Positions 2,125-23,252 of a DNA stretch of 23,524 nt are shown here, piece by piece (within the stretch, counting starts at the first letter, position 1; each line of letters begins with the position of its first letter). This stretch comes from a virus. Made by a program: the position numbers and the translations under genes. The stretch covers positions 1-23,524 of the IMG/VR virus record IMGVR_UViG_3300023184_000529; one strand, given 5' to 3'. Under the pieces are notes generated by a model. The model ran no database searches. It saw only the letters and a program-made list of their open reading frames with translations, and was not told the origin of the DNA.

Positions 2125-2973
2125 TTAGAATCCGGCGGATTCGAGATCAGCCTGAAAGGCGTAATCCATAGCCCGCCGCATCTTTTCTGCCTGCATGTCA
2201 ATAGCCTGCTGGGCCTGCCCATCTGAGAGACAATTACTTACCCATGGTACGTGATTAACCATATTGATCCTACCGATCATAAAGTTTTCTGATTGATCGA
2301 TAACCGTCCCAGCCGCACGTTTCCCCGCGTGCCGCTTTACCCAAGCAGGAACCGCTTGCTGTTCAGTCCCTGAGATATTTGTGCCCATCCGGCCTCTAGT
2401 TCCTCCGAGCTTCATAGCACACGCGGCCCATCCGGCCTTGGCTATGCCCACCTTTTTCTGTACTTCTTTTATGTAGGCTTTGAGCTGTGACTTTTCATCT
2501 GTGATTAGTAAGGGCTCTTGCCTCTTTAACATCCTTGGTCTCTTAGGTATTGGCCTTAGAGCTTGCTTATGAAAGCTGCCGCTCATAGTTCCAATGTGCG
2601 CCTGTAGTAATCCTGATATGCGAAGGCGGACTAAAAGATTTCTGGCTAAATCAAAATCACCTTTTTTTACCATCGCATAAAACGCCCGGCCCGCTCCGAT
2701 TGCCTGCTTCTCAATCTTGTCGTAAACATCAGCAGGCGTGCGGATCACTTTTCTAATGTCGTCGGCCACCTTGCCTTCCCCTTGTGACTTTGCGCTGTCT
2801 TGCTGGCCGCCGATTGCTTTAGATCCTCCGAATGGTTGGGTCTGAAATGCAAGGTTCACCGCCATCAATCTTGCCTGTGCTCTCAATACTTCGGCTGGCG
2901 ACTTCTGGTATCTGTAAAACTTTTGTAGCGCTAACTGTAATGCGCGATCGTCTACGGTGATTTTCTCAATCAC
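2125..2973 (-). CDS. Tail-region protein of unknown function
   Basis: This is a basic 282-residue protein starting with GTG in a GTGA overlap with the gene upstream. It is rich in Lys, Arg, Gln and Ala and largely helical (ALQLALQKFYRYQKSPAEVL; AQQAIDMQAEKMRRAMDYAF near the C-terminus). The segment DDRALQLALQKFYRYQKSPA resembles the start of phage neck or tail-completion proteins that act on a protein axis, but I cannot assign a family. Its position between the putative chaperone and the tape measure places it in tail assembly. There is no signal peptide and no membrane segment. Confidence 0.65.
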   Translation of the reverse strand: MIEKITVDDRALQLALQKFYRYQKSPAEVLRAQARLMAVNLAFQTQPFGGSKAIGGQQDSAKSQGEGKVADDIRKVIRTPADVYDKIEKQAIGAGRAFYAMVKKGDFDLARNLLVRLRISGLLQAHIGTMSGSFHKQALRPIPKRPRMLKRQEPLLITDEKSQLKAYIKEVQKKVGIAKAGWAACAMKLGGTRGRMGTNISGTEQQAVPAWVKRHAGKRAAGTVIDQSENFMIGRINMVNHVPWVSNCLSDGQAQQAIDMQAEKMRRAMDYAFQADLESAGF

Positions 2974-3533
2974 TTCCCTGCCCTCCGGGCGCGGACTGCC
3001 TCGATAGCTACCAGCTCCCCTTCGCTAAGTAGATCCACGCTACTGCCTTTCTGCATCGCAAAGGCCACGTGATACCAGTACGCCTGGCCGATGGGCATGT
3101 TCCAGACGGTAGCCTCGGCCCACCCAGTAGATCCGCAGACGCTGGCCACAATGGCCAGTGACCAGGGTAAGCCCGTGGCTTCCCGGCCGCTGCTCTGTTT
3201 TCTCTCCGGCTGCCAGAGCTGGGGCAACGCATTAAAATCATCGAGGTAGGCGCGAAACTTAGTCGTCTCGATCAAGAACTCACAGCGCCAGCTTTTAAGC
3301 CAGTCCCAGAGCAGGCTTTTATTGGACAAGTCTGGTAAGCGCGGGAATACGGATCGGCAGATGTTAACCGCTAGGCGCAGATCCCTAGCACTAGGAAAAT
3401 TGCCGCCAGTAAAATAGGGAGACTGAGCCACCTCTAAGTTAAACATGTGCCAGAGGGACAGAGGGCGTAGTGGCAGGCCGAGGACGCGATGATCCTCCCT
3501 ATTTAAAAATGATTCTGCAAAGTGGCGATTCAT
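2970..3533 (-). CDS. Putative tail assembly chaperone-like protein
   Basis: This 187-residue protein begins at an ATG eight bases after the purine-rich site AAGG. The N-terminus (LGLPLRPLSLWHMFNLEVAQSPYF) has the pattern of phage proteins described as tail assembly chaperones or tail-tube-associated proteins, with leucine, tryptophan and a following SPF/SPY motif. Position also fits, since chaperones normally sit just before the tape measure. I looked for the programmed frameshift typical of lambda G/GT-type chaperones. No convincing slippery site leads into a downstream frame, and the next gene is simply coupled by a GTGA overlap. The function is therefore a positional inference. Confidence 0.5.
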   Translation of the reverse strand: MNRHFAESFLNREDHRVLGLPLRPLSLWHMFNLEVAQSPYFTGGNFPSARDLRLAVNICRSVFPRLPDLSNKSLLWDWLKSWRCEFLIETTKFRAYLDDFNALPQLWQPERKQSSGREATGLPWSLAIVASVCGSTGWAEATVWNMPIGQAYWYHVAFAMQKGSSVDLLSEGELVAIEAVRARRAGK

Positions 3534-4925: not shown

Positions 4926-5186
4926 ATGGCTAAGTGGTTTTTTATTTTTGTTTTAATTTGTAGCGTGGCGCTGGGAGCTGATGCGGTGAGTGAAAAGCGG
5001 CTAAGCCTAGACGACGGAAAGTGGTGTCTAAAGGGAAAGCCGTTTTCTGGGGTGGCTTTTGTAGCGGAGGGCAACTGGCGAGCGGAGATGACTTACTTAG
5101 ACGGAGTGCTCGACGGGCCTGTGACAGTGATCGTGGCCAATAAACTATTCTCGCAGTTCAACTACTCCAACGGGGTAAGAAACTAA
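4926..5186 (+). CDS. Secreted MORN-like small protein (moron)
   Basis: This 86-residue protein is the only rightward gene inside the leftward structural operon. It opens with a Sec-type signal peptide (KWFFIFVLICSVALGADA, probable cleavage after ADA or LGA). The mature part reads like one to two MORN-type toxin-antitoxin/repeat units: LKGKPFSGVAFVAEGNWRAE, then YLDGVLDGPVTVIVAN and FNYSNGVRN, with the spaced G-x-F-S-G and D-G-x-L-D-G-P pattern. It probably acts in the envelope or periplasm of the lysogen or infected cell. Being reversed, single and flanked by its own promoter-like box, it fits the definition of a moron. Its stop codon overlaps the stop of the convergent methyltransferase gene. 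Confidence 0.65.
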   Translation: MAKWFFIFVLICSVALGADAVSEKRLSLDDGKWCLKGKPFSGVAFVAEGNWRAEMTYLDGVLDGPVTVIVANKLFSQFNYSNGVRN

Positions 5187-5197
5187 AGTTGCTTTAG
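5183..5197. terminator. Short hairpin at convergent gene ends
   Basis: CTAAAG and CTTTAG form a perfect 6-bp stem with a TTG loop exactly where the rightward moron and the leftward methyltransferase genes end. No U-run follows on either strand, so termination is uncertain; it may instead be a 3'-end stabiliser or a chance palindrome. Confidence 0.25.
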
Positions 5198-5746
5198 CCA
5201 GGAGTTTTCTAGTCCCTCGACTTCTCCGATGGTTTGTTGGACGGCTAGATCTACCCCGCCCCAGCCGCATCCGTAATCGTGCCCGCCGATAAGGCCGCCT
5301 GTTTTTACTTTAGGCAGCCAGGCTAAAATATCCGCCTTAACGTTTTCGTAATCGTGGGCGGCATCGATAAAGACTGAATCGAGAGATTGATCGGGAAAGA
5401 AATTAGCGCCTTTTAAGCTGGGCATGCGTAAGGAAACAAGCTGGCGGGAGACGGGTTTAACATTGTCCAGAAACTCTTGGTATAGGGTGCCGTTTTTTAT
5501 GCACTCTTCGCCTGCGTGTTCCTCGCTCCCTTCCCAAGTATCGACGGCGTAGATTTCTATCCGTGGAGATTTGTTCCATGCTTCCACAAGTAGGAAAGCT
5601 GTAGACCTGCCTTTCCAGCTTCCTACCTCGACGATTTTGCCGTCGGCCGGACAGGCCGCAACCATTCGGCGATAGACTTCGGCAAAGGTAAACCAATCCT
5701 CCCCAAACTCGTGCCCAGCGTGTAAGTGCGCTAGGTGAGTATCCAT
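5183..5746 (-). CDS. Class I SAM-dependent methyltransferase
   Basis: This 187-residue protein shows the core of a Rossmann-fold methyltransferase of the type often found in sugar and antibiotic clusters (Methyltransf_24-like). The SAM-binding loop is VEVGSWKGRST (residues 39-49). An acidic strand end (AVDTWEG, 67-73) comes next, then FIDAAHDYENVKADI (126-140), and the post-core GGHDY motif (154-158) has a likely metal or catalytic histidine. It lacks DNA-methyltransferase motifs (DPPY, NPPY or PC), so a sugar, O-methyl or protein target is more likely. It overlaps the glycosyltransferase gene upstream by 16 bases and is the last gene of the modification cassette. I infer that it methylates a sugar placed on the virion or on a host glycan. 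Confidence 0.75.
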   Translation of the reverse strand: MDTHLAHLHAGHEFGEDWFTFAEVYRRMVAACPADGKIVEVGSWKGRSTAFLLVEAWNKSPRIEIYAVDTWEGSEEHAGEECIKNGTLYQEFLDNVKPVSRQLVSLRMPSLKGANFFPDQSLDSVFIDAAHDYENVKADILAWLPKVKTGGLIGGHDYGCGWGGVDLAVQQTIGEVEGLENSWLKQL

Positions 5747-6405
5747 TTTGTTTTCTTATTTAATTCTGTAGCCACGCGGGTGGCGTGATGGTTCTCCTGG
5801 TGAAACTCTGGGCTAGGACAAAAGGCTCCGCGGGTGGCGCCGATATTCTGGATCCTACTTACCCTGGGGAAGATTTCCCCGTTGCCCATGTTTTCACGTA
5901 CACGCTGGACGCCACCATCCCAGAAAGAATTATTCCAGTTAGGTAAGAGATATTTTTCCCATGTGCTTTTCCACGTAGCCCAGCCCCAAGGGGTGAACCA
6001 GTGGCGAAAGCCTGCGACGCTGGGATCTGCATCGGCGCCGTGTTGGTTGTAGGCGGAGATGGTTAGGGTTTGCTTTGGGGCGTGTGTCCGCCCCCACTCC
6101 ATCCACCGCAGAAAGTCGGGGCTGGGCACGGTATCGTCCTCCAGATGAATATGGTAGTCGCTAACCCGAAAGCCCAGCGCCATGCAGTAGCGGATCATGG
6201 CGCCACATCCTAAGCGATCGAGCATGACCATGGCCTGCACTCCCTGCCCTTTACAAAATTCTGCGATCTCTGGAGTTTTATCGGATGGATCAAGAACGAC
6301 GACGACGTCGTACTCGCTAATCCCCTCGCACTTGGCCAGGGCTTTTAGGGTAATGGCGAAGTAGTCCGGCCTGTTGTAGCCAGAGAGTGTTAGGGTTTTG
6401 TTCAT
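5731..6405 (-). CDS. Glycosyltransferase, GT-A fold with EDD motif
   Basis: This 224-residue protein starts with TLTLSGYNRPDYFAITLKAL, the usual first strand and helix of a nucleotide-sugar transferase. VVVVLDPS (about 34-41) follows, and a DxD-equivalent EDD at 89-91 sits in HLEDDTVPSPDFLRW. This arrangement resembles the N-acetylglucosaminyltransferase I-like branch. The later HWFTPWGWATWKSTWEKY, with several tryptophans, matches the GWATW segment seen in bacterial members of these families. It is translationally coupled (ATGA) to the larger glycosyltransferase upstream and overlaps the methyltransferase downstream. Acceptor and donor sugars cannot be read from sequence. Its place in the head operon suggests the virion as substrate. 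Confidence 0.75.
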   Translation of the reverse strand: MNKTLTLSGYNRPDYFAITLKALAKCEGISEYDVVVVLDPSDKTPEIAEFCKGQGVQAMVMLDRLGCGAMIRYCMALGFRVSDYHIHLEDDTVPSPDFLRWMEWGRTHAPKQTLTISAYNQHGADADPSVAGFRHWFTPWGWATWKSTWEKYLLPNWNNSFWDGGVQRVRENMGNGEIFPRVSRIQNIGATRGAFCPSPEFHQENHHATRVATELNKKTKWILT

Positions 6406-8543
6406 CCCTTGAGCAAGGCGTAGGCCGCCAGATTTCCCCCAGTGGCTTTATTATTTTGCAGGGCATCTGCCCCCAGTCCTTCTGGACGGATGCGGATCCC
6501 GCCGGATCGCGAGAAGTCTGGCGTATTGCAAACAAGGGTGCGGACTCCGTTTTTCTGCAGTGCTTGGCTCATAACAAAATCGTCCGCAAGGAAGTGGGCA
6601 CGGCCCACCGAGTCCAGCCCGGCAAACTCCTTGGGACTCATCGCGGGCCAGAGATCTGCGCTGGGCATATCCGAGCGCCGACAGATGACGCCAGCAAAGC
6701 CCTCCAGGATCTCGGCGTGACCGAGGTGATCGGGCGCGATGGCGTAGCCTGTGGAGCCTGTCATAAAAAAGCCACAGATGCCGAGCGCCGCTTTTTGCGT
6801 TTTGTTTTGTTCGTCGGCGAGCACCTGCAACATCGTGGGACCGTAAAGGATATCGTCATCGCACCAGACGATCTGGGCGGTGGGATCCGTCTCGGCCGCC
6901 ATCGCACCGATAAACTTGGTGGCGGGGCCGTGGTCTAGGGTTCGGTTAATTTCTAATTTACCAGAATCGGCTAGGGCCTGTATCTCGGCGGGGATATCCC
7001 CAAAGCGTTCGCCTGTGCGGGCTAGTTTTTCTGGGACGGAAAGGATGATGCGATCGGCTGGGCGTGACTGGGCCAGCAAGCTCTGGATGGTGGGCATGAT
7101 CTTACCTATCCGAGTAGGTGTGGTGGTAAGGCCGACGACTATTTTGCCAGGGCGATCGACGGGATCGGGTAGTCGGACGGCTGCGGCCGGGACGGTGCCC
7201 TGGGTAATGAGATCTACGTCCCAGCGCAGTGGTGGGCAGGCGGTATCTTTATCACATTTTACGAAAAGCAGGATCCGGCCGAGAGCTGCGGCGGTGGCCT
7301 CCTCCGCATCCTTGACGATGTGGATTCGTTTGCCTGCGATCTCAGTGCCCGGATCGGTAATAAAGAGGTATTGAATGGCGGCCGGATTGTCCGAGGTATC
7401 CATAAAGAATTTCTGTAGGCGGAAAGCGTCTGCAAATGGGCCGTTGAACACGATGGTGATCTGGCCCCAGTTCCCCCGGAAGTTTTCACGTAGGCAGCGA
7501 TCCGCATCTGCGGTCTGGCCGACGGCTCGCAGGCACTGCTCGATGAGTAGCTTAGGCAGGTGGCCGTACCACTTAGCGTCCAGATTCCAGATAACACCTT
7601 GGGGACGCGGTAACGTCTCGACCATATTAAGCAGGCGGACGGCTTCGGAGAAGTTGCCCTCGTCGATAAGGATGGTGGCGAGGTGGCCGTAGGCTTCGCG
7701 ACGTGTTGGGCACCGGGCGATGCCCATGCCGAGGTACTTACGCTTTTTAACGTGATCCGCGCACATCACGCCAGCCATGCAGAAAAGCTGGTAGCGTTCC
7801 GTCTCGCCTAGATCTGGATGCTCTAGGCCGAGGAGCGTGGGGCCGATGCTCTCTTGGTAGAGGCCGCGTAGGTATCCCTCTTGGGCCAGATAATAAAGAT
7901 TCATCCCGGTATGTTCTAGGAGCGTGCCGAGGATCCGTTTATTGCGATCGCTAGAGTTTTTTTTGCAGGTGTTAGGCGCGTGAATTACTACGAGGTGATC
8001 GGCTAGGCCGACGCCCAAGCCAGGGACGGGTTTGACTCGTTCGTGGACGGCTCGTTCCCAGATGGCTGGGAGGGTTCCGTCGGGTTGGCGCCGGAAAAAT
8101 CTTTCTCTTCGATTATCCCTCATTCCACTATTTTGGACGTCATACCGGGTGACTAAAATTTCCCAGCCTTCTTTGGCTTGTTCACGGACGAGGACGGCGT
8201 CGCGGTGCAGTTTAGCCTGGCCGGGATCCAGCAGATCGTCCGCATCAAACCAGATGACGTACTTCCCTGTGGATAGGTTAAAGGCCATGTTGCGGGCAGC
8301 GGCGAAATTGTCGATATGAGGCCAATCAGCATGCTCGGGTGCATTCTGATACTCGCCCCAGACTAAAGCCTCGCCAGCGGCCTCCTGTGCGCAAATACGC
8401 ACACTCTGCGCATCATTTTTACCGCAAGCGGAGACCACGACGACTTCGTCCCATAGACCTGCGCAGGACTTAATTAAACGGGCGACGAGTTCCCCTTCGT
8501 TGGGGCCGACGATGAGTGCTAAAGAAATAAGGGGGGTTTTCAT
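6402..8543 (-). CDS. Large two-domain glycosyltransferase with central helical repeats
   Basis: This is a 713-residue protein with two transferase modules. The N-terminal one (about 1-230) is a family-2 glycosyltransferase: it has LALIVGPNEGELV at the start, DNFAAARN around 78-85 and WFDADD around 98-103 as the metal-binding DxD. The centre (about 235-350) looks like helical TPR-type repeats (HLATILIDEGNFSEAVRLLNM). The C-terminal module begins near residue 470 (KIVVGLTTTPTRIGKIMPTI) and carries VWCDDDILYGP near 560 as a second DxD-like motif. It starts 66 bases after the capsid gene, past a strong hairpin, without a recognisable Shine-Dalgarno site, which suggests lower expression than the capsid. 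It probably makes a multi-sugar structure with its two partners. Confidence 0.8.
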   Translation of the reverse strand: MKTPLISLALIVGPNEGELVARLIKSCAGLWDEVVVVSACGKNDAQSVRICAQEAAGEALVWGEYQNAPEHADWPHIDNFAAARNMAFNLSTGKYVIWFDADDLLDPGQAKLHRDAVLVREQAKEGWEILVTRYDVQNSGMRDNRRERFFRRQPDGTLPAIWERAVHERVKPVPGLGVGLADHLVVIHAPNTCKKNSSDRNKRILGTLLEHTGMNLYYLAQEGYLRGLYQESIGPTLLGLEHPDLGETERYQLFCMAGVMCADHVKKRKYLGMGIARCPTRREAYGHLATILIDEGNFSEAVRLLNMVETLPRPQGVIWNLDAKWYGHLPKLLIEQCLRAVGQTADADRCLRENFRGNWGQITIVFNGPFADAFRLQKFFMDTSDNPAAIQYLFITDPGTEIAGKRIHIVKDAEEATAAALGRILLFVKCDKDTACPPLRWDVDLITQGTVPAAAVRLPDPVDRPGKIVVGLTTTPTRIGKIMPTIQSLLAQSRPADRIILSVPEKLARTGERFGDIPAEIQALADSGKLEINRTLDHGPATKFIGAMAAETDPTAQIVWCDDDILYGPTMLQVLADEQNKTQKAALGICGFFMTGSTGYAIAPDHLGHAEILEGFAGVICRRSDMPSADLWPAMSPKEFAGLDSVGRAHFLADDFVMSQALQKNGVRTLVCNTPDFSRSGGIRIRPEGLGADALQNNKATGGNLAAYALLKG

Positions 8544-10481: not shown

Positions 10482-10500
10482 CGTGTCAAAGTGGGGCTAC

Positions 10501-10517
10501 CGTAAGAACTACTTTTT
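10501..10517. repeat. Direct repeat after the exported-protein gene (copy A)
   Basis: These 17 bases match positions 10977-10993 at 15 of 17. On the minus strand this copy lies just after the stop codon of the exported-protein gene and looks like a remnant of the portal gene's 3' end (CCTAAAAAGTAGTT). Confidence 0.6.
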
Positions 10518-10521
10518 AGGA

Positions 10522-10950
10522 TTATCGCAGGGACTGGTCTAAGAGTTCTTCTAGTTTTTTCGCCTCTTCTGACATCATATAACGTTTAGGAACTATGTCT
10601 CCAGTTTGATTCGGGTTATCCGACGGCAGGCGATAAGTAAACCCCCTCTGATCTATGAACCGAGATAGGGCGTCTAAAGTTAAGGATGCCATTTTTTCAA
10701 ACTTCAAAACATCTGACGAGGCTTTAGTTTTATTAGCCACCGCCGCTTGTTTTTTTGTTCTTTCATCTAAAAGTAAATAGACCGCCCCTAGCCCTTTCCG
10801 TTCGGCCCTGACCATTTCTAACTCCATCTGATTTGATTCTTCGGCCATTCTGTCATGATTCTGTTGATCGGCGGCGGCGGCTTGGTTTTGTTGTTCCTGC
10901 CCGTAAGCCAGACCAGAACATAATAAACTTAAAATAAGTATCTTAAGCAC
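10522..10950 (-). CDS. Exported coiled-coil protein, probable moron
   Basis: This 142-residue protein has an N-terminal signal peptide (MLKILILSLLCSGLAYG, probable cleavage before QEQQ). The mature part is helical and highly charged (MAEESNQMELEMVRAERKGL; a coiled coil to about residue 70), with a C-terminal helix EEAKKLEELLDQSLR. The cysteine in the signal is not in a good lipobox. The start is GTG; an AGGAG lies rather far upstream. The gene is more AT-rich than the portal and protease genes around it and has no counterpart at this place in lambda. It is bracketed by imperfect 17-bp direct repeats, so I read it as an inserted cargo gene. A periplasmic role, for example in lysis or exclusion, is only a guess. 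Confidence 0.6.
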   Translation of the reverse strand: MLKILILSLLCSGLAYGQEQQNQAAAADQQNHDRMAEESNQMELEMVRAERKGLGAVYLLLDERTKKQAAVANKTKASSDVLKFEKMASLTLDALSRFIDQRGFTYRLPSDNPNQTGDIVPKRYMMSEEAKKLEELLDQSLR

Positions 10951-10976
10951 ACCACAAGCCTGCTCCTAGTGGGAGC

Positions 10977-10993
10977 CGTAGCAACTACTTTTT
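10977..10993. repeat. Direct repeat at the portal 3' end (copy B)
   Basis: This 17-base copy covers the portal stop codon and the bases after it, and matches 10501-10517 at 15 of 17. A five-base hairpin (GCTCC/GGAGC, 10962-10976) borders it. Together with copy A it encloses the exported-protein gene. Confidence 0.6.
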
Positions 10994-15649: not shown

Positions 15650-15904
15650 CACCATGTGCCGACCATGTGTCCGACCATGTAGGTGTGTAAGAGATACAAG
15701 ATAAGGAAGATACAGATGGAGTTACATGGTCAACATGGTCACTTGGGTATTTAAACACGCGCGCGCGGGTGCGCACGCGCACGCGAGGGTCATTCGCACC
15801 TTTATAGCAACCTACCATGGCGACCATGCGCAACCTCATGAAACATCTTGAGAGGGAGCGGGATCGGACTCTGCATGGTCAGACGCATGGTGGTCTACAT
15901 GGTC
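15650..15904. repeat. Mirrored array of ten CATGGTC-type heptamers (origin or packaging site candidate)
   Basis: GACCATG-type copies on the plus strand are at 15650 (CACCATG), 15661, 15673, 15813 (TACCATG) and 15822. CATGGTC-type copies are at 15725, 15734, 15874, 15886 (CATGGTG) and 15898. Spacings are 11 and 12, 9, 9, 12 and 12. Mirror pairs share a centre at 15776.5 (the outermost pair is off by one base). The centre is an alternating purine-pyrimidine tract, 15755-15767 and 15769-15785, prone to Z-form or cruciform structure. The right three copies lie inside the end of the primase gene, where they encode the repeated Asp-His pairs. A replication origin or a cosB-like small-terminase binding site are the main readings. 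I see no convincing gene in 15539-15835. Confidence 0.65.
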
Positions 15905-18349
15905 TGGATAGATCCTTGTGATGACTATCTCTCGGCTATGGCCCTCGCCTTTAATCGTTAGTATCCGATCACCGAACTGCCTGCCATCAAACCTAGCCAA
16001 GATCTTGCCAAAGGATGATCGCTCCTTACGCACCACGTCTTCCCTTTCGGGTATGTCCTCATCCAATACCCAGTGGAATAATCCCTTTTCCCTAGCATCA
16101 GCCATCAGAGTAGCTGCCCTGAATGAAGTAGAGGCTCCTGCAAAGAACTGTGTACCCACCAGCTTACTCATGTCGTGCAGGGTATCGTCAGTGCTTACCG
16201 TGGCCCGCTGGCATGGATGCACCCCCGTCACCATTTCAATAATCCCACCGATTTCAGCAGACCACCGCGGAAAGGAGCTGTTGGTCTGACTACCGCGTGG
16301 CCGCCCACTATTGTCCCAGTGCTTAGCCACCGCCCACATCGCCGCTAAGATAGTTCCTCGCGCCCTTAAAATATCCTCCTCACTAACATCCTTCTTGAAC
16401 TTTCTGTCCTCAATAAACGCCTCCTTAACATGTAACGCTAGGTGAAGCGTCCGCCTTCTCATGTCTGGATTTACCCTGGCACTGTTCGACGTGATAAAGA
16501 TCAGCGTGTTCTTATCCACCACAAAACTCTTCGACAATCCCAACAGCCTCCCCTTCCAAGTAGAAGCAGTGATGAACGCCTCCAACGGACTGCTCTTAAT
16601 TTCACCGCGCCAATTATCAAACACCAGGTAACGATCCCCAGCGATCGCGCACGCACTTAATAATTTAGCCAACTCATCTTGCCCTTTCGAGTCCGGCGGC
16701 GCCGTGATCTGCATTGGACCGAACACCGGGCACACCGCATATCTGCACAGCAACGTCTTGCCTGCACCTTCACTGTTAGCGCTAAAGATAAACGCCGGAC
16801 GCGGCTCCCGCACCGCCAGCAACAGATCTAAAAACGGAGCAAACATCGCGCCCAACGCCACCGCCTTACCTCTTGCATGCTCGGACGGTTCCTCTCCAAA
16901 AGGAAACTCGCTAATCAGTTCCAACAGATACGCCTGGGCATCTTCAAAAGCCATATCCCTGGCGAAGTCCTGCGACTCCTGCACGAGCACCTGACTCTCC
17001 TCATCATAACCAGTCGAAAGCAGATCCAGAGATCCATCCTTACGGAACACAGGCAAAGGCACCTCTGAATACCCACGGATGGGCCTTAGATGCCTACAAA
17101 ACTGCGACGATTCCAGAACACCTGCCGACGCCTTGTCGCTTAGCGATGCGTTCTCCTCACCACCCTGCGTCCGCTTGTAAGGCACCACATGAAGCTCCAG
17201 CCATGTGTGAAACTTCTCGCTGGGCATAGTTTCCAGCCGTCCGGCCGCCGTCACATACACCGGGATCCCGTCCCTCTGATACATCTTATCTTTAAGGGCC
17301 AACCCCAGCGCATCCGCCGTTTCACTCAATAGCTTTCCATTACCAGGCAACTCCACCCGCGTCCGTCCGTCCTTATCATCAGCCGCCTTCACCACCTCCG
17401 CCACGTCCCACTCATACCGATCTACCGCATCGTCTGAAGTCTCCATGTACGCGTCACGCACCTTACGGCCCAGCTCAGCCATCGTTTCACCATCACCATA
17501 CTTGGCCACGTACAAAGACAGATCCGCCTTCTCCGGCCGCCCCTCCGGCCAGATCTTAGACCAATCCAACACCCTCACCCGCCCGCGCTTCGATACCAAG
17601 GCCCTTGCTACCAACTCCGCATGAGACTCACCTTGGGCATCACTATCTTGAAAAACGTTTACCACACGCCCCGCTAGAGCAGCCGTGTAGCTGTCACGCC
17701 ACTTACCTGCACCCATCGGCACCGTCGTCGCCAGCCAGCCCATTTCCATCGCCAGATCCGCATCCTTCTCACCTTCACAAAACCAGACAGGCTCATCCGG
17801 CCTAGCGATTAACTCAGGCAGATTATAGAGCACAGGCTCCGTGCCCTTTAACGTCCACAACCACCACCCACCAAAATAATCTTTCGAGGCCGCCTTCTCA
17901 CCCACCCGATCCCCCTCCTTAGCAGGCCGCCGTTGCGAGAACCCCTTTGGCTCATACCGTAGCGTCTGATGAGCCAGCGTCCCGTCTGCGTTTAGGTAGG
18001 AATACGTCTTTACCAGATTACGCTTCGGCTTCGCACCAGGGGCCGCCTTCGGCCGGGTCGATCGCGCCTCACTCGTATCCCCTGCAAACTCGCGCAGAAT
18101 CTTAATCGCCTCGCCCTGACTCACACCCCGCACCTTTTCGATGAGAGTCACCTGATCGCCGCCATCACCAGTGCCAAAATCCTTCCAGCGTAAACCGTCT
18201 TTGCCCTCGTAGATATTGAACGATGGATTCTCATCCCCCGCTCTTATCGGAGAGCACATCTTTCCCGTGCCAGAAGGGAAATTTACAATACCCAGCTTCG
18301 CCGCTGTATCCGCCAGGGACACAGTGGCTTTTAATTCTAGGATGGTCAC
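15836..18349 (-). CDS. Phage primase-helicase
   Basis: This is an 837-residue replication protein starting with GTG in a GTGA overlap. Residues 1-90 resemble the DnaG-type N-terminal domain (CSPIRAGDENPSF, 32-44; WKDFGTGDGGD) but keep only one of the usual zinc ligands. A TOPRIM domain at about 185-255 has FCEGEKDADLA (catalytic Glu) and FQDSDAQGE (Asp-x-Asp). From about 440 onward comes a helicase-type ATPase: Walker A EGAGKT near 525, Walker B YLVFDNW near 570, and FITSNSARVNPDMRRR near 630 with probable sensor and arginine finger. It makes primers and unwinds DNA at the phage origin. The last 20 residues (PDHVDHHASDHAESDP) are Asp-His-rich because the heptamer array runs into the gene. Confidence 0.88.
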   Translation of the reverse strand: MTILELKATVSLADTAAKLGIVNFPSGTGKMCSPIRAGDENPSFNIYEGKDGLRWKDFGTGDGGDQVTLIEKVRGVSQGEAIKILREFAGDTSEARSTRPKAAPGAKPKRNLVKTYSYLNADGTLAHQTLRYEPKGFSQRRPAKEGDRVGEKAASKDYFGGWWLWTLKGTEPVLYNLPELIARPDEPVWFCEGEKDADLAMEMGWLATTVPMGAGKWRDSYTAALAGRVVNVFQDSDAQGESHAELVARALVSKRGRVRVLDWSKIWPEGRPEKADLSLYVAKYGDGETMAELGRKVRDAYMETSDDAVDRYEWDVAEVVKAADDKDGRTRVELPGNGKLLSETADALGLALKDKMYQRDGIPVYVTAAGRLETMPSEKFHTWLELHVVPYKRTQGGEENASLSDKASAGVLESSQFCRHLRPIRGYSEVPLPVFRKDGSLDLLSTGYDEESQVLVQESQDFARDMAFEDAQAYLLELISEFPFGEEPSEHARGKAVALGAMFAPFLDLLLAVREPRPAFIFSANSEGAGKTLLCRYAVCPVFGPMQITAPPDSKGQDELAKLLSACAIAGDRYLVFDNWRGEIKSSPLEAFITASTWKGRLLGLSKSFVVDKNTLIFITSNSARVNPDMRRRTLHLALHVKEAFIEDRKFKKDVSEEDILRARGTILAAMWAVAKHWDNSGRPRGSQTNSSFPRWSAEIGGIIEMVTGVHPCQRATVSTDDTLHDMSKLVGTQFFAGASTSFRAATLMADAREKGLFHWVLDEDIPEREDVVRKERSSFGKILARFDGRQFGDRILTIKGEGHSREIVITRIYPDHVDHHASDHAESDPAPSQDVS

Positions 18350-18516: not shown

Positions 18517-19163
18517 CCCTGCACCTCATTCTGTAAGAACGCCACTAGATCCACGATTGCCTTCATCTCAGCGAGCAGTTCCCTGTGCTTTTCCCTCGAC
18601 CAGTTTTCAATCGGGTCACGCGACTCCACCTGCCTATGCCATTCAGAGAAACTGCGCACCACCTCTTGAATTGTGTTCACACCTCCTTGCCTTTCTTCAG
18701 ATCCGCGGACTACTTCACCCTGAGCGATCGATCGTTTTAAATCCATCGGGGTCAGCTTCTCCACCTCCGCCACCTTCGCCCACTTATCTTGCTCCTTTAC
18801 CGTGGGCAGCTTTGTTAGAAACAGATAATGCTGGGCACTCAGCCCAGGGCGCCTGCGCTCCAGCGGCACCGCCGCCAAGCTCATCAGCAGATCATACTTA
18901 CCACCTACAAAATCAAACTCTAGCTGATCGACCGCCTCGTCCCAGTCAGTCTCCTCGTAGGACGCTTTACCGTACTGCATCCAATCCGCTTCCCACCACA
19001 GCGTAGCGGTCCGGGCCGCCTTCAGCATCCGGCCCACCTCCTTCCACTGCTCAATCGTCAGAGGCTTATCAAAGACCAACCCATTTGCAGTCATTCGCAC
19101 ACCGGGCACCTTTTCCACCGTCCTGCCTTCAGGATCCAGCCGCTTCAATTCTAGGATTTGCAT
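18513..19163 (-). CDS. Phage protein with WWxxDWxxYG core (replication operon)
   Basis: This is a 216-residue protein. The segment GLVFDKPLTIEQWKEVGRML (about 28-47), followed by ATLWWEADWMQYGKASYEE (about 53-71), matches a family I have seen in phage and plasmid operons. There the pattern is a helix, WWxxDWxxYG, then a domain in which ParB-like HTH features sometimes occur (here LERRRPGLSAQHYLFLTKLP and NTIQEVVRSFSEW). The start overlaps the upstream gene by 13 bases and has GGGAG as ribosome-binding site. Its place next to the primase suggests a role in replication or its control, probably by DNA binding. The family's biochemical function is not known to me. Confidence 0.6.
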   Translation of the reverse strand: MQILELKRLDPEGRTVEKVPGVRMTANGLVFDKPLTIEQWKEVGRMLKAARTATLWWEADWMQYGKASYEETDWDEAVDQLEFDFVGGKYDLLMSLAAVPLERRRPGLSAQHYLFLTKLPTVKEQDKWAKVAEVEKLTPMDLKRSIAQGEVVRGSEERQGGVNTIQEVVRSFSEWHRQVESRDPIENWSREKHRELLAEMKAIVDLVAFLQNEVQG

Positions 19164-19702
19164 ATTTTCAATACTCCCTTTTGGTTATCAGATTTAGTTT
19201 TCTCCACCCCCACCGACGCTCGGCGCCAATGGTTTCCACGTTGAACCGATCGGTAAGATTCCACTGCCCCTGCAGATTTAAAATTTGCGTTCGTACGTAT
19301 CCCCAGATGATCGCGCCACCATATCGTCCGCTTTGAGAGGGCCGCCACCGTCCAGCCAAACTCACGGGCCGCCGCCCGCATCGATGGCATCCCGTTCAGC
19401 GATCCAAGATCACAAGCAAAGCCCAGCGCCCAGCAGGCCATCTTCGTGTTGCCCGGCCGTAGCAAAACGGCCACCACGCGCGATATCGTTTGTGAGAGAG
19501 AAATCTTCACCTCTTCAGCCGCCCTTGCCTGCGTCCATTCGTACACGTGCCGGGCACAAGCCAGCGTCTGAGTTAGAGTCGCCCCTGGTATCTGCGCACA
19601 GATAATCTCGGCCAACATATCCTCGGGGCCGTCTACCTCACCAGCTATGTCCACCCTGTACGACGCCTCGGGCGCCGATGCCGGATCCATCACGGACTTC
19701 AT
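19151..19702 (-). CDS. Helix-turn-helix DNA-binding protein
   Basis: This is a 183-residue protein. The C-terminal half contains MACWALGFACDLGSLNGMPS followed by MRAAAREFGWTVAALSKRTI (about 112-142), a clear helix-turn-helix in which the first helix reads out the small residues and the second SKRTIWW. The remainder (RSVQRGNHWRRA) is basic. The first ten residues (MKSVMDPASA) are shared with the next upstream gene through a direct repeat. ATGA coupling joins it to that gene. It is likely a regulator of the early operon or an accessory replication protein. Proteins of this look are common in phage operons that I associate with Verrucomicrobiota, but the host link is unproven. Confidence 0.6.
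   Translation of the reverse strand: MKSVMDPASAPEASYRVDIAGEVDGPEDMLAEIICAQIPGATLTQTLACARHVYEWTQARAAEEVKISLSQTISRVVAVLLRPGNTKMACWALGFACDLGSLNGMPSMRAAAREFGWTVAALSKRTIWWRDHLGIRTNANFKSAGAVESYRSVQRGNHWRRASVGVEKTKSDNQKGVLKICKS
19678..19702. repeat. Direct repeat at gene start (copy A)
   Basis: These 25 bases encode the start MKSVMDPA of the HTH gene and match 19887-19911 at 23 of 25. Recombination between the copies would remove the 70-residue gene and leave an intact start. Confidence 0.75.
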
Positions 19703-19911
19703 TTCGTTATCTGTGCTGTTCGGCGGTTCTTATAACGCTCTGCCATTTTGTCCCAGTTTATGGTCTTAAGACCCTCAAAATCTGGTGTGTAACTTTTAAT
19801 AAGAATTTTAGCCACCAAATCTGAGGTTATTGGAATCGCGTAGATAATTTTTTGCCTGCGCTTCTGAAAAGCAGTTAGCGGGGCCAATGCCGGATCCATC
19901 ACAGACTTCAC
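19699..19911 (-). CDS. Small AT-rich protein of unknown function
   Basis: This 70-residue basic protein starts with GTG directly after the TAA of the gene before it, and its stop overlaps the next ATG (ATGA). The first eight residues MKSVMDPA are the same as those of the HTH gene downstream. The rest (FQKRRQKIIYAIPITSDLVA, then TINWDKMAERYKNRR) is unrelated and looks like a small DNA- or protein-binding fold. Two full lines of the gene count to about 37-38% GC, well below the primase-side neighbours. It appears to be a cargo gene bracketed by 25-bp repeats. Confidence 0.55.
   Translation of the reverse strand: MKSVMDPALAPLTAFQKRRQKIIYAIPITSDLVAKILIKSYTPDFEGLKTINWDKMAERYKNRRTAQITK
19887..19911. 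repeat. Direct repeat at gene start (copy B)
   Basis: This 25-base copy forms the first codons (MKSVMDPA, with GTG start) of the 70-residue gene; partner of 19678-19702, differing at two positions. Confidence 0.75.
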
Positions 19912-20151
19912 TTAAATTTCAATCGCCTCTAGTTCCTGAAGGATGGCTAAAGCATCTTCAGTAATGTGATATCTTGATTTGCTCTCACCCGAGTCCCAAT
20001 CGATATCCTTTAGAAATGGCATATCTTCAAAAATTACTTCGCCGCTGGGAGCTTTTTTGCCTGTCTCTACTTGCTTTAAATGGGTGTAGTGCCCGCTGGC
20101 GGCTAAGCCTGATATAATTAATGCTAATCGGTTTTTCTGATTTTCGTTCAT
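19912..20151 (-). CDS. Small acidic protein of unknown function
   Basis: This is a 79-residue protein with a good ribosome-binding site (GGGAGG seven bases before ATG) and an ATGA overlap with the upstream gene. The N-terminal helix NENQKNRLALIISGLAASGH is followed by a central basic turn (QVETGKKAPSG). The C-terminal RYHITEDALAILQELEAIEI resembles the last helix and wing of a winged-helix domain. It may be a small transcription or replication accessory protein. No family is recognised. Confidence 0.5.
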   Translation of the reverse strand: MNENQKNRLALIISGLAASGHYTHLKQVETGKKAPSGEVIFEDMPFLKDIDWDSGESKSRYHITEDALAILQELEAIEI

Positions 20152-20561
20152 TTTAACCTCCCATTAACGCGCGCCCACTTATCAGCCAAATTCTGAACTC
20201 GCACCGGGTACTTTTTGTAGTGTCCCCGCAATTCAGGAAATGCTTCAAATAAATGGCTAAGAGATCCGCGGGTAATTAATCGACGTTTAAACATCCGCTC
20301 CACTGCCCGGCCCCTTGCCTTCATCTCTTGGATCTGTCCGTTGTAACGGGCCCGCCAGTTGTTCATCTGGGCTTGCGTAGCCTTAGCCGTCATCACGTAG
20401 CCGTCCTTAGTGCCTATCACCATCCCGGCGCTGTGCTCCGCCCGGCGGCGCCAGGCACGACGACGGCCCCCGTACAGATCGCATAGCCGCTGGGCCTGCA
20501 CAGGCGTTTTCCGCCTGCGCAGGGCGCTCACCAGCTTGTTGGGCTTCGCCAGCTTAATCAC
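20148..20561 (-). CDS. Basic protein, likely nucleic-acid binding, unknown function
   Basis: This 137-residue protein is strikingly rich in Arg and Lys throughout (LVSALRRRKTPVQAQRLCDL; GGRRRAWRRRAEHS; MKARGRAVERMFKRRLITRG). It starts with GTG in a GTGA overlap that is part of a repeated junction sequence. Composition suggests DNA or RNA binding. The segments TQAQMNNWRARYNGQIQEM and SLSHLFEAFPELRGHYKKY are helical. There is no HNH, RuvC or other nuclease motif that I can see. Function unknown. Confidence 0.5.
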   Translation of the reverse strand: MIKLAKPNKLVSALRRRKTPVQAQRLCDLYGGRRRAWRRRAEHSAGMVIGTKDGYVMTAKATQAQMNNWRARYNGQIQEMKARGRAVERMFKRRLITRGSLSHLFEAFPELRGHYKKYPVRVQNLADKWARVNGRLK

Positions 20562-20578
20562 CGCCAGCTCTCCAGCAT
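20557..20578. repeat. Direct repeat at gene junction (copy A)
   Basis: These 22 bases match 21084-21105 at 20 of 22. They encode the end MLESWR and stop of the 175-residue gene and the start of the next. Together the two copies enclose an AT-rich gene. Confidence 0.75.
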
Positions 20579-21085
20579 TTTCATTGGTAATTGTGAAAGG
20601 ATGTTTTGTATGTCTTCACTTTCATCCTGATAAATTCTTAGTTTTTTGCGTACTATTTCCCTTTTCTTAAGCCAAAAAATCATATTACTCCATACGCCAG
20701 GATGAAAAATACGGATGTAAGTTGAACAGTTTTTTGCGTACAAATTGGCGTATCTAGTCATTCCAAGCTCACTAGGTGGTAGTTCGTTGTCGCTATAGTT
20801 AGAACAAATTAAAATTAGCTTTGATTTGCTTGTCTGATACATCTCCGGATGATCAACAACCCCAGTTGCTGGTTTTTCGCCTTCTTGGTTATGTAGAAAA
20901 AGGTTTTTGTTAAGGCTTTGAATATACGGAAACACGTTCACAGATTTTGTGATACAAAACTCTTCTACAAATTTGTTTCGGTTCTCAATTATTTCTTCAT
21001 CTTTAGAAAAGCGTTTATCCGTAACGCCCAATATCTTAGGATATTTATTTACAACCTTACCATCGATTGCAGGCGCCACAGCCAT
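20558..21085 (-). CDS. AT-rich cargo protein of unknown function
   Basis: This protein has 175 residues from the ATG at 21085, which overlaps the upstream stop (TGATG) and has GAGGAG nine bases before it; a start nine codons earlier at 21112 is possible. The body (ILGVTDKRFSKDEEIIENRN; FVEEFCITKSVNVFPYIQSL; KLILICSNYSDNELPPSELG) looks like a folded alpha/beta protein with several cysteines and aromatics. The segment GVWSNMIFWLKKREIVRKKL is a strongly amphipathic helix. Three full lines count to about 30-35% GC, far below its neighbours. It is bracketed by 22-bp direct repeats, indicating recent acquisition. I do not recognise it; a defence, counter-defence or exclusion role is possible but unsupported. 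Confidence 0.55.
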   Translation of the reverse strand: MAVAPAIDGKVVNKYPKILGVTDKRFSKDEEIIENRNKFVEEFCITKSVNVFPYIQSLNKNLFLHNQEGEKPATGVVDHPEMYQTSKSKLILICSNYSDNELPPSELGMTRYANLYAKNCSTYIRIFHPGVWSNMIFWLKKREIVRKKLRIYQDESEDIQNILSQLPMKMLESWR

Positions 21086-21105
21086 CACCGCCAGCTCCTC
21101 AGCAT
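21084..21105. repeat. Direct repeat at gene junction (copy B)
   Basis: This 22-base copy encodes the end MLRSWR and stop of the 31-residue membrane protein and the start of the 175-residue gene; partner of 20557-20578. Confidence 0.75.
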
Positions 21106-21180
21106 CGGCCATGCCATTACAAACAGCACCACCACCATCATCGGACCAATAATCCGCACCGCTGTATCTAGGATTTCCAT
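21085..21180 (-). CDS. Tiny single-span membrane protein (31 residues)
   Basis: The frame reads MEILDTAVRIIGPMMVVVLF and continues VMAWPMLRSWR. A hydrophobic helix (about residues 9-27) is followed by an Arg-rich end, the layout of a small bitopic inner-membrane protein with its C-terminus inside. A strong AAGGAG site lies about nine bases upstream of the ATG, and the stop overlaps the next start (TGATG). It could be a holin-like, exclusion or regulatory membrane peptide. No homologue is known to me, and its small size limits certainty. Confidence 0.5.
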   Translation of the reverse strand: MEILDTAVRIIGPMMVVVLFVMAWPMLRSWR

Positions 21181-21181
21181 A

Positions 21182-21394
21182 TTACTTTGCTCCTTGGGTT
21201 TGTTGTTTTTCCTTCAGTAAACTCGTCACCACTTCCTCTAGTCTCGCCAGCCGGGCCTCTAGCCCTTGGATCCGCATATCCCTGGCCGCATTAGCAAAGG
21301 CATCGAACACCCCGGCACTCCAGGCCACCGCTGGCTTGCACTCGCCCAGCACCCCTTCCTGTTCCAGATCCCGCACTTCAGTCGGCTCAATCAT
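21182..21394 (-). CDS. Small coiled-coil protein
   Basis: This is a 70-residue protein with an AAAGGAA ribosome-binding site ten bases before ATG. The first half (PTEVRDLEQEGVLGECKPAV) is acidic and the second is a regular coiled coil with heptads (IQGLEARLARLEEVVTSLLK). It ends one base before the start of the 31-residue membrane protein, so the two are probably co-translated and may work together. Function unknown. Confidence 0.5.
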   Translation of the reverse strand: MIEPTEVRDLEQEGVLGECKPAVAWSAGVFDAFANAARDMRIQGLEARLARLEEVVTSLLKEKQQTQGAK

Positions 21395-21395
21395 A

Positions 21396-21629
21396 TTATT
21401 TTGTTCCTTTATTTTTGTTACCGTTCAAAAAAGACATTTTTGGAGCAGGCCACGCCAACGGTAAAAAAGGGTTTTTGCGGGCGGGTATAAAGCCCAGGGG
21501 CCGCAGGAATTTTTCTAGTAAGGGGAACAGCCGACCTCCGCCACGGATAGAACGTGTGGAGGCCGATTCGCCGTCACCTAGCGCGGGGGCGCCAGGCAAA
21601 CGACCCAAGGGAAAGGAACGCAAAGTCAC
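21396..21629 (-). CDS. Possible small Pro/Arg-rich protein (doubtful)
   Basis: A 77-residue frame can start at a GTG that overlaps the stop of the membrane protein upstream (GTGA), and it ends one base before the next ATG. The sequence (FPLGRLPGAPALGDGESAST; FLRPLGFIPARKNPFLPLAW) is Pro/Arg-rich, with no domain visible. The coupling fits the operon's habit. However, another frame is also open on the plus strand and composition is unusual, so these roughly 230 bases could be non-coding. Nearby bases contain only a weak hairpin (CCTCC/GGAGG type around 21535-21560). Confidence 0.25.
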   Translation of the reverse strand: MTLRSFPLGRLPGAPALGDGESASTRSIRGGGRLFPLLEKFLRPLGFIPARKNPFLPLAWPAPKMSFLNGNKNKGTK

Positions 21630-21778: not shown

Positions 21779-22041
21779 CAGATCGTCCTCATATCGGGCA
21801 TCCACTGCCCCTCTGGTCCGGCCTCGGCGGCGCGGGGGTGTGTTAAATCTTGCGCATAAAACCAAGCTGCGGTTCCGCGCTGGGGAGGTTGTTCACCGCC
21901 GTGAAATTTAGTCGAAGGCGGGACGTTTGCTACGGGCTTGCTACCGGATTCCCCTAACTTACTGATGCTAAGTAGTTGCGCCCGAGAGGATTTGAACCTC
22001 CAACTAAGTCGGAGTTCGTTGTACACAAGAGGAGCTTTCAT
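21778..22041 (-). CDS. Possible ORF running through the attachment site
   Basis: This 87-residue frame starts at the ATG at 22041 and reads through the tRNA-like core (residues 7-22, overlapping YNELRLSWRFKSSRAQ), then SKLGESGSKPVANVPPSTKF, ending GQWMPDMRTI. Its stop overlaps the start of the membrane protein (TGATG). The N-terminal part is a translated tRNA sequence and so is suspicious. The C-terminal part keeps coupling with the operon. It could be a spurious frame, or a leader whose 5' end is exchanged upon integration. Confidence 0.3.
   Translation of the reverse strand: MKAPLVYNELRLSWRFKSSRAQLLSISKLGESGSKPVANVPPSTKFHGGEQPPQRGTAAWFYAQDLTHPRAAEAGPEGQWMPDMRTI
21977..22022 (-). other. Putative attP: 3' half of a tRNA gene
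   Basis: On the minus strand a T-arm is present (stem 21997-22001 with 21985-21989, loop TTCAAAT at 21990-21996). It is followed by CGGGCGC and discriminator A (21984 to 21977), with no encoded CCA. The bases before it (ACGAACTCCG) resemble the anticodon loop and stem of an arginine tRNA, but the variable region does not fit well, so the isotype is open. No matching 5' acceptor GCGCCCG occurs upstream, so this is only a 3' fragment. Phages that integrate into tRNA genes carry exactly such a segment as attP, beside the integrase, as here. Confidence 0.65.
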
Positions 22042-22091: not shown

Positions 22092-23252
22092 GTGGCCTCT
22101 ATTTACACAAGAAAAGGTTCGGAGTGCTACTCGATCAGATACAAAGGACCGGGCGGAAAGTGGATGGGCAAGCCAACCCAGTACCGCATTGATTCCCAAC
22201 TGCACCGAGCGAAGGCACTGGCCGAGGCGGCTAAAATATCCGTAGTAGAAAAACAGCGCAGCTTTAGTGGCCACGATTGGGTTCTTAACCATATCCATAA
22301 CTGGCCTTCCAGCCCTCTCACCACGTCCCACTACTGTAATAGCTGGAACTGGCTCGAGATGTTTATGGCCGAGCACAAGATTCACCTGGAGGACTTCGGC
22401 CCCAGCCAAGCCGAGCTCTACATCACCTGGCGTTGTGCCGATCGACGGCCCGCCGACGCTCACCGCCACCGCTCCGGCCACCGCGTCCACCGTAACAGCG
22501 CCTTGCGAGATATTAAGTTCTTGAAGTGGATCCACCGCCAAGGCCGCCTGCTGGGTAAGTGCCAGACTGTTGCCCTTAACGACTACGCCATCAAGCCGTC
22601 TGCCCGCATCCGCATTTTCCCCACCTTTAGCCCTGCCCAGATCGCGGCCGTCCGAAATGCCCTGAGCCATAAAGTCGTCCCTAATTGGATGCGAATAAGC
22701 TTTGAGATCGGACTGGCCACTGGTTGCCGCCTGCGCGAAACTGCTATCCCTCTGGAGGGGGTGGATCTGATAGGCGGCACTATCACCTTCCCCACTCCCA
22801 AAGGAGGTACCAACATGGCCTTCTCCATTCCCATCCCAAAGGCGATCGTCCCACTCCTTTGCGACCTCAAGGCGAGCGGCGCGAAAGTCAGTTGCCAGAT
22901 CCCGCCCAAAGCTAGCTACTACTGGCGCCAGTTGTTTGATCGAGTTGGATTGAAGACGCACGTTTTTCATTCTCTAAGGGTCACGCGGGTGACAAATCTT
23001 CGGAAAGCGGGAGTGCCACAATCCTACGCCATGAGATTGGTGAACCACTCTTCTTCAATGGTGCACCAACTTTATCAAAGGCACGAAGTTGAGGACTTAC
23101 GGGACTATGTGGATTGCGGTTCCTCCGGGCCCATAGTTCCAGCGAGGACGGAAAAACCCGCCCGTGCACAAGGGGGAAATCTGGTTCGTCAAAAAGCTTT
23201 CGCGCGTAGGAATACGAGACTGAATAGCCCAACTGAAATTCCGTTATGTTGA
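22092..23252 (+). CDS. int: Tyrosine-type integrase
   Basis: This is a 386-residue site-specific recombinase starting with GTG, the first possible start in frame; no Shine-Dalgarno site is seen. The N-terminal IYTRKGSECYSIRYKGPGGK is a typical arm-binding or AP2-like start. A SAM-like domain follows (about 85-170). The catalytic set is complete: Arg213 with Glu216 in TGCRLRE, a Lys in TPKGG (about 240), His293 and Arg296 in HSLR, His319 in VNHSS, and nucleophile Tyr328 in LYQRH. The last 50 residues after the tyrosine are a loose basic tail antisense to another plausible gene. It would integrate the phage at the tRNA site about 70 bases upstream. TATAGT at 22050 is a weak -10 candidate. Confidence 0.9.
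   Translation: MASIYTRKGSECYSIRYKGPGGKWMGKPTQYRIDSQLHRAKALAEAAKISVVEKQRSFSGHDWVLNHIHNWPSSPLTTSHYCNSWNWLEMFMAEHKIHLEDFGPSQAELYITWRCADRRPADAHRHRSGHRVHRNSALRDIKFLKWIHRQGRLLGKCQTVALNDYAIKPSARIRIFPTFSPAQIAAVRNALSHKVVPNWMRISFEIGLATGCRLRETAIPLEGVDLIGGTITFPTPKGGTNMAFSIPIPKAIVPLLCDLKASGAKVSCQIPPKASYYWRQLFDRVGLKTHVFHSLRVTRVTNLRKAGVPQSYAMRLVNHSSSMVHQLYQRHEVEDLRDYVDCGSSGPIVPARTEKPARAQGGNLVRQKAFARRNTRLNSPTEIPLC

Follow-up and report, generated by a model that had tools for sequence, protein, structure and literature searches.

An AT-rich gene of 175 codons in the early operon of a tailed phage lies between two 22-bp direct repeats, each placed on a junction of overlapping genes, and in both relatives whose sequence covers this operon the gene is missing and the repeat is present once. 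We propose that the gene is probably a recent lateral acquisition at an overlapping-gene junction, in which foreign DNA was joined non-homologously under selection for translation, the repeats being a by-product of its insertion.

The window, i.e. the whole stretch of DNA analysed here, corresponds to an entire IMG/VR record, 23,524 bases long, and is a metagenomic contig. It carries an integrase gene (22092-23252) and a minus-strand early operon, which leads to the primase-helicase, terminase, portal and head genes. Two relatives, G001 (UViG_3300023184_000364) and G002 (UViG_3300037839_000340), were retrieved from IMG/VR with g137, g183 and the junction sequence as queries. Together with the window they are the three genomes of clade A that cover the operon, all of them metagenomic contigs; seven more clade A contigs were found by their terminase and lack the early operon. 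The primase of the sister clade (clade B) is about 57% identical to that of clade A. A genome scan for the host returned distant matches only.

Several other features of these genomes were observed. A stretch adjoining the integrase (21975-22030), common to the window and G001, resembles the 3' terminus of a tRNA (TTGGAGGTTCAAATCCTCTCGGGCGCA, minus strand), and ARAGORN reported no whole tRNA there; it is likely to be the core of an attachment site. The 837-aa primase-helicase (15836-18349) is encoded by one gene in the window, G001 and G002, and by two genes with an ATGA or GTGA overlap in all 11 sister-clade contigs examined (among them L014, 8422-10904, and L018, 10001-12474), a difference that reads as fusion or fission at a stop/start overlap. 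Between the head and tail genes (5183-8543) the window encodes proteins of 713 and 224 aa, glycosyltransferase-like by eye, and a 187-aa methyltransferase-like protein (PHROG 2675). Many terminase-bearing contigs (L059, L060, L061 and others) start some 650 bases ahead of the large terminase gene, and this common start suggests a packaging or genome end.

Table 1. Positions in the window of the genes, repeats and insertion sites discussed in the text
Feature	Position	Strand	Remarks
Upstream (original) junction repeat, ATCACCGCCAGCTCCTCAGCAT	21084..21105	-	TM31 3' end (MLRSWR, stop), Shine-Dalgarno GAGGAG, GTGA
Downstream junction repeat, ATCACCGCCAGCTCTCCAGCAT	20557..20578	-	175-aa gene 3' end (MLESWR, stop), Shine-Dalgarno GGAG, GTGA start of g137
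AT-rich orphan cargo gene, 175 aa	20558..21085	-	176 aa if the start is GTG 21088
TM31, gene of a 31-aa membrane peptide	21085..21180	-	Conserved in both clades
g137, 137-aa gene 3' of the cargo	20148..20561	-	Coupled directly to TM31 in G001 and G002
g79, AT-rich gene, GC 0.41	19912..20151	-	In G002; two other AT-rich genes instead in G001
Second cargo gene, 70 aa, GC 0.43	19699..19911	-	Absent from G002, one repeat copy there
34-bp repeat, upstream copy	19880..19913	-	Supplies the start and first ten codons of the 70-aa cargo
34-bp repeat, downstream copy	19671..19704	-	Native start of g183
g183, conserved operon gene 3' of the 34-bp repeat	19151..19702	-	
Third site, empty version, AAGGAGCAAAGTAATATG	21178..21195	-	In G001, AT-rich 290-aa gene between two 18-bp copies
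Possible fourth case, variable 142-aa gene (10522-10950)	10500..10993	-	3' of the portal gene

The 175-aa gene and its empty sites

The gene is situated between TM31 and g137 (Table 1). The sequence-only reading had placed 22-bp repeats sharing 20 of 22 bases at its two operon junctions, and the copies (91% identical, spaced 527 bp apart) stand exactly there; on the minus strand they encode the near-identical ends of the TM31 and 175-aa proteins that it had described. A search of the window allowing up to three mismatches found these two copies only, and none in 100 shuffles. The window has three local 20-bp repeats with up to two mismatches, where shuffles average 0.05.

Whether both junctions have the same stop/start overlap, as was also claimed, depends on the start codon. 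The overlap before g137 is GTGA and that before the 175-aa gene is GTGATG; the latter is again GTGA with a start at GTG (21088), but TGATG with a start at ATG (21085). As the insert overlaps both neighbours in this way, it leaves no intergenic room for a promoter or terminator of its own, such as a classical moron has.

With a GC content of 0.37 and a GC3 of 0.35, the gene is clearly AT-rich compared with the old operon genes (0.53-0.58 and about 0.6-0.7, respectively), but its codon adaptation of 0.68 is only slightly low relative to their 0.66-0.79. Of the two measures that the sequence-only reading had suggested, the strong signal thus comes from composition and not from codon bias. The protein had no significant match in Pfam, PHROGs, NCBIfam, PADLOC, PDB sequences, phages, plasmids or IMG/VR; two weak matches in Chryseobacterium phages were rejected, being antisense to annotated genes. 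That this orphan serves host takeover or exclusion, as an accessory early cargo gene might, is only a guess.

In both G001 and G002, TM31 passes directly to g137 through a single copy of the repeat, which is the 527-bp-shorter version predicted from the repeats. An analysis of overlapping BLAST segments accordingly shows a 527-bp insertion in the window, with 22-23 bp shared, against either relative. When the insert is removed in silico, TM31 is unchanged and g137 starts at its own GTG, with 4 substitutions in 131 bases relative to G001; excision between the copies would therefore leave both neighbours intact and coupled, as had been foreseen. The upstream copy, at TM31, is identical over all 22 bp to the single copy of G001 and G002, while the downstream copy has two adjacent base changes, both in its cargo-facing half. 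The allele of the downstream copy (the GGAGAGC form), which a donor might have carried, was absent from all fetched loci except the window.

In the sister clade TM31 is followed directly by g183, without cargo genes between the two and also without g137. As g137 is missing, an empty TM31/g137 junction is not visible there, which leaves room for loss of the cargo through the repeats.

Further insertions of the same anatomy

Two more insertions, beyond the one noted in the sequence-only reading, have the same structure. The first is a 70-aa gene between 34-bp copies that are 88% identical. Relative to the single copy of G002, changes in the upstream copy are confined to the vicinity of its cargo end, and those in the downstream copy to the half that faces the cargo. 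No homologue of the 70-aa protein was found; a tblastn match to g183 looks driven by the duplicated first codons and was not counted as homology. The second is a 290-aa gene of G001 (2373-3247), flanked by AAGGAGAAAAGTAATATG and AAGGAGCAAAGTAATATG, a site at which the window and G002 are without the gene and have the repeat once. This gene has a GC content of 0.38, and its protein belongs to PHROG 5931, with distant homologues in many phages.

Each copy agrees with the empty site on its outer side, most of the differences being on the side that faces the cargo. Copies that were identical at first and drifted where they had ceased to be needed would give this pattern, and a donor whose flanks differed slightly would do so equally well.

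There are three clean gene-sized insertions in the clade A operon, and all three are repeat-flanked (22, 34 and 18 bp). In the wider family about ten other gene-sized insertion loci, counted by eye, share 0-7 bp, often just the stop/start ATGA; the longer overlaps among them (13 and 33 bases) come from ends of alignments that match poorly. The difference between three of three and none of about ten corresponds to p of about 0.004, a rough value since the loci were grouped after the data had been seen. These family insertions count against our explanation, in that junction duplication is not general, and the explanation gives no reason for the clustering of three cases in this operon.

A possible fourth case is the 142-aa gene downstream of the portal gene, with flanking 18-bp repeats (10976-10993 and 10500-10517) that are imperfect (16/18) and not significant alone. 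The gene is AT-rich, hairpin-like sequences stand on both sides of it between the portal gene and the next one, and its site is occupied by other genes in G001, G002 and G013 and by none in G014. The start regions of g70, TM31 and g216 also resemble each other (21392-21409 with 21178-21195, and 21167-21184 with 19150-19167; 16/18 each, singly not significant) and are perhaps the remains of older junction duplications.

At g79, where no repeats were seen, G001 (L004, 3648-4554) has two AT-rich replacement genes, one of them PD-(D/E)XK or homing-endonuclease-like (Pfam PF11645, PADLOC HEase).

Translation signals and the origin of the repeats

All three repeats include the start codon of the downstream gene, and the 22- and 18-bp repeats also hold its Shine-Dalgarno sequence, which is embedded in the final codons of the upstream gene. 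The anti-Shine-Dalgarno sequence pairs with the 22-bp copies at -8.4 and -6.4 kcal/mol (-6.4 being the downstream one) and with the 18-bp copies at -8.5 and -7.9 kcal/mol, whereas the cargo DNA directly preceding the second copy yields +0.4 and -1.3 kcal/mol, respectively. If the second copy were missing, the downstream gene would be deprived of its ribosome-binding site, and if the first were missing, the upstream gene would lack its end; in these two cases the presence of two copies is therefore accounted for.

On the other hand, about 30 bases of the 34-bp repeat lie within g183, and no Shine-Dalgarno sequence is present in its downstream copy. As it is longer than translation needs and the second copy lacks this signal, its duplication is not explained by necessity. 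Coupling through the ATGA overlap is the likely substitute for a Shine-Dalgarno sequence at g183. No Rfam families were detected.

Based on these observations, the acquisition may have proceeded as follows. At the ancestral TM31/g137 junction the upstream stop, the downstream Shine-Dalgarno sequence and the start would have lain within about 20 bp, and a harmless insertion there would need the junction twice, or a newcomer with its own Shine-Dalgarno sequence. Non-homologous recombination that put foreign DNA between two phage DNA ends overlapping at the junction would duplicate the latter, and selection would retain the product from which all three genes can be translated. The newcomer would then be driven by the upstream copy and g137 by the downstream one. 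The same process may have acted on other junction sequences, of 34 bp for the 70-aa gene and of 18 bp for the 290-aa gene of G001.

The sequence-only reading held that cargo genes both enter and leave at junction repeats. Reversible exchange of this kind, in which recombination between the repeats moves genes in and out and the junction is a docking site for circular or linear donors, would yield empty sites with exactly one copy, as found, and the in silico excision does give a working operon. Similar short-repeat events in mycobacteriophages have also been read as short-homology recombination (PMC3029335). The single-copy empty sites and the two additional AT-rich flanked genes agree with this claim as far as it goes, but turnover itself is not borne out. 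The three repeat sequences are unrelated and lack a shared core, so that they offer no common recombination site; repeats of 18-34 bp with 1-4 mismatches are short for general recombination; and in the compared genomes no pair of repeats was seen to enclose a second, different cargo gene. Moreover, for a gene that one of the three genomes carries, a single gain is at least as good an account as two losses. We consider reversible exchange unlikely, though the use of the repeats for excision is possible.

A second alternative is that the clade A ancestor already had the 175-aa gene, and that it disappeared from G001 and G002 through slippage at the repeats. Bacterial genomes commonly vary by deletions of this kind, between short direct repeats (PMC2884548), and the product of one would match the empty sites exactly. 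However, this scenario requires the 175-aa gene to have been lost twice independently and the other cargo in events of its own, sits poorly with the strongly AT-rich cargo (GC 0.37-0.43 against 0.53-0.58 in the old operon genes) and with a sister clade that has no 175-aa gene between TM31 and g183, and leaves the origin of the repeats unexplained. Ancestral loss seems rather unlikely. In these three genomes parsimony, composition and the cargo-free sister clade favour gain over loss as the direction of change.

Target-site duplication by a mobile element or a homing process, with the cargo as a passenger, would also produce symmetric flanking repeats and a single copy in the empty site, and a homing-endonuclease-like gene is present nearby in G001. 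That gene, however, is not repeat-flanked, and to our knowledge homing does not normally produce such duplications. The three inserts contain no recognisable transposase or nuclease and no terminal inverted repeats, and the duplications, which are long for transposases, have no fixed length (18, 22 and 34 bp). A transposon or insertion sequence and a homing endonuclease cassette were both rejected on these grounds. Target-site duplication is thus improbable, and given the differing repeats a dedicated element behind the insertions is unlikely. Finally, mis-joining of contigs at short repeats, conceivable since every record is a metagenomic contig, is highly improbable, as different genes in two contigs from different datasets show the same arrangement, the cargo boundaries leave every reading frame and start site functional, and a 22-bp repeat is shorter than typical assembly overlaps.

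Recent acquisition with duplication of the junction, the reading we prefer, suggests a rule: where a ribosome-binding site lies inside the neighbouring gene, a harmless insertion either duplicates the junction or brings its own site. A base-level view of how packed viral operons gain genes without damage to translation is seldom available, and here three insertions can be read against their own empty sites. It is conceivable, but quite doubtful, that such junctions form a renewable docking site, in which each gain duplicates the stop, Shine-Dalgarno sequence and start and leaves both an excisable cassette and a new junction for the next gene. If so, cargo would turn over while translational coupling is never broken.

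Comparison with known systems

Variable segments flanked by short repeats are common in bacterial genomes (PMC2884548), and phages offer several parallels. Mycobacteriophage LRRHood differs from Cali by a 1.35-kb insertion between 29-bp direct repeats, which are single-copy in Cali; the authors favour gain (PMC3029335). The likeness consists in extra genes between short direct repeats with one copy in relatives, and the 175-aa gene, too, is present or absent among close relatives and flanked by direct repeats that are reduced to one copy at the empty site. The exact 29-bp repeat could be located again in the record of LRRHood, where it falls inside the end of gp42, at some distance upstream of gp47. 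Unlike the repeats of the window, it ends 13 bases before the gp42 stop and does not include the gp47 start, and hence is not a stop/start junction. In addition, the LRRHood segment comprises four genes in one event, whereas clade A has single-gene inserts in three cases.

The mycobacteriophages Island3 and Brujita differ by a segment attributed to recombination at sequences of about 50 bp, for which the authors were unable to tell insertion from deletion (PMC3029335). The presence or absence of a segment bounded by short repeats is the common trait; the repeats are longer, general recombination is invoked, and the passage on these phages describes no translation junction.

The Start Associated Sequences of Cluster K mycobacteriophages are repeats at the Shine-Dalgarno/start regions of many genes with a shared 13-bp consensus (PMC3203893). 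In contrast, the repeat pairs of clade A are local, each pair has a different sequence, and no such consensus is shared. PeSLs, which reportedly comprise promoter and terminator motifs, are said to lie at gene junctions and to be linked to gene shuffling. They have been described as mobile regulatory cassettes of T4-type phages (Arbiol 2010 and Comeau 2014, as cited in PMC4503421). Both systems are repeated at gene junctions, but those of clade A hold a stop, a Shine-Dalgarno sequence and a start only. While gene insertion between short repeats as such is already known, what is new here is its recurrence on the translation junctions of one operon.
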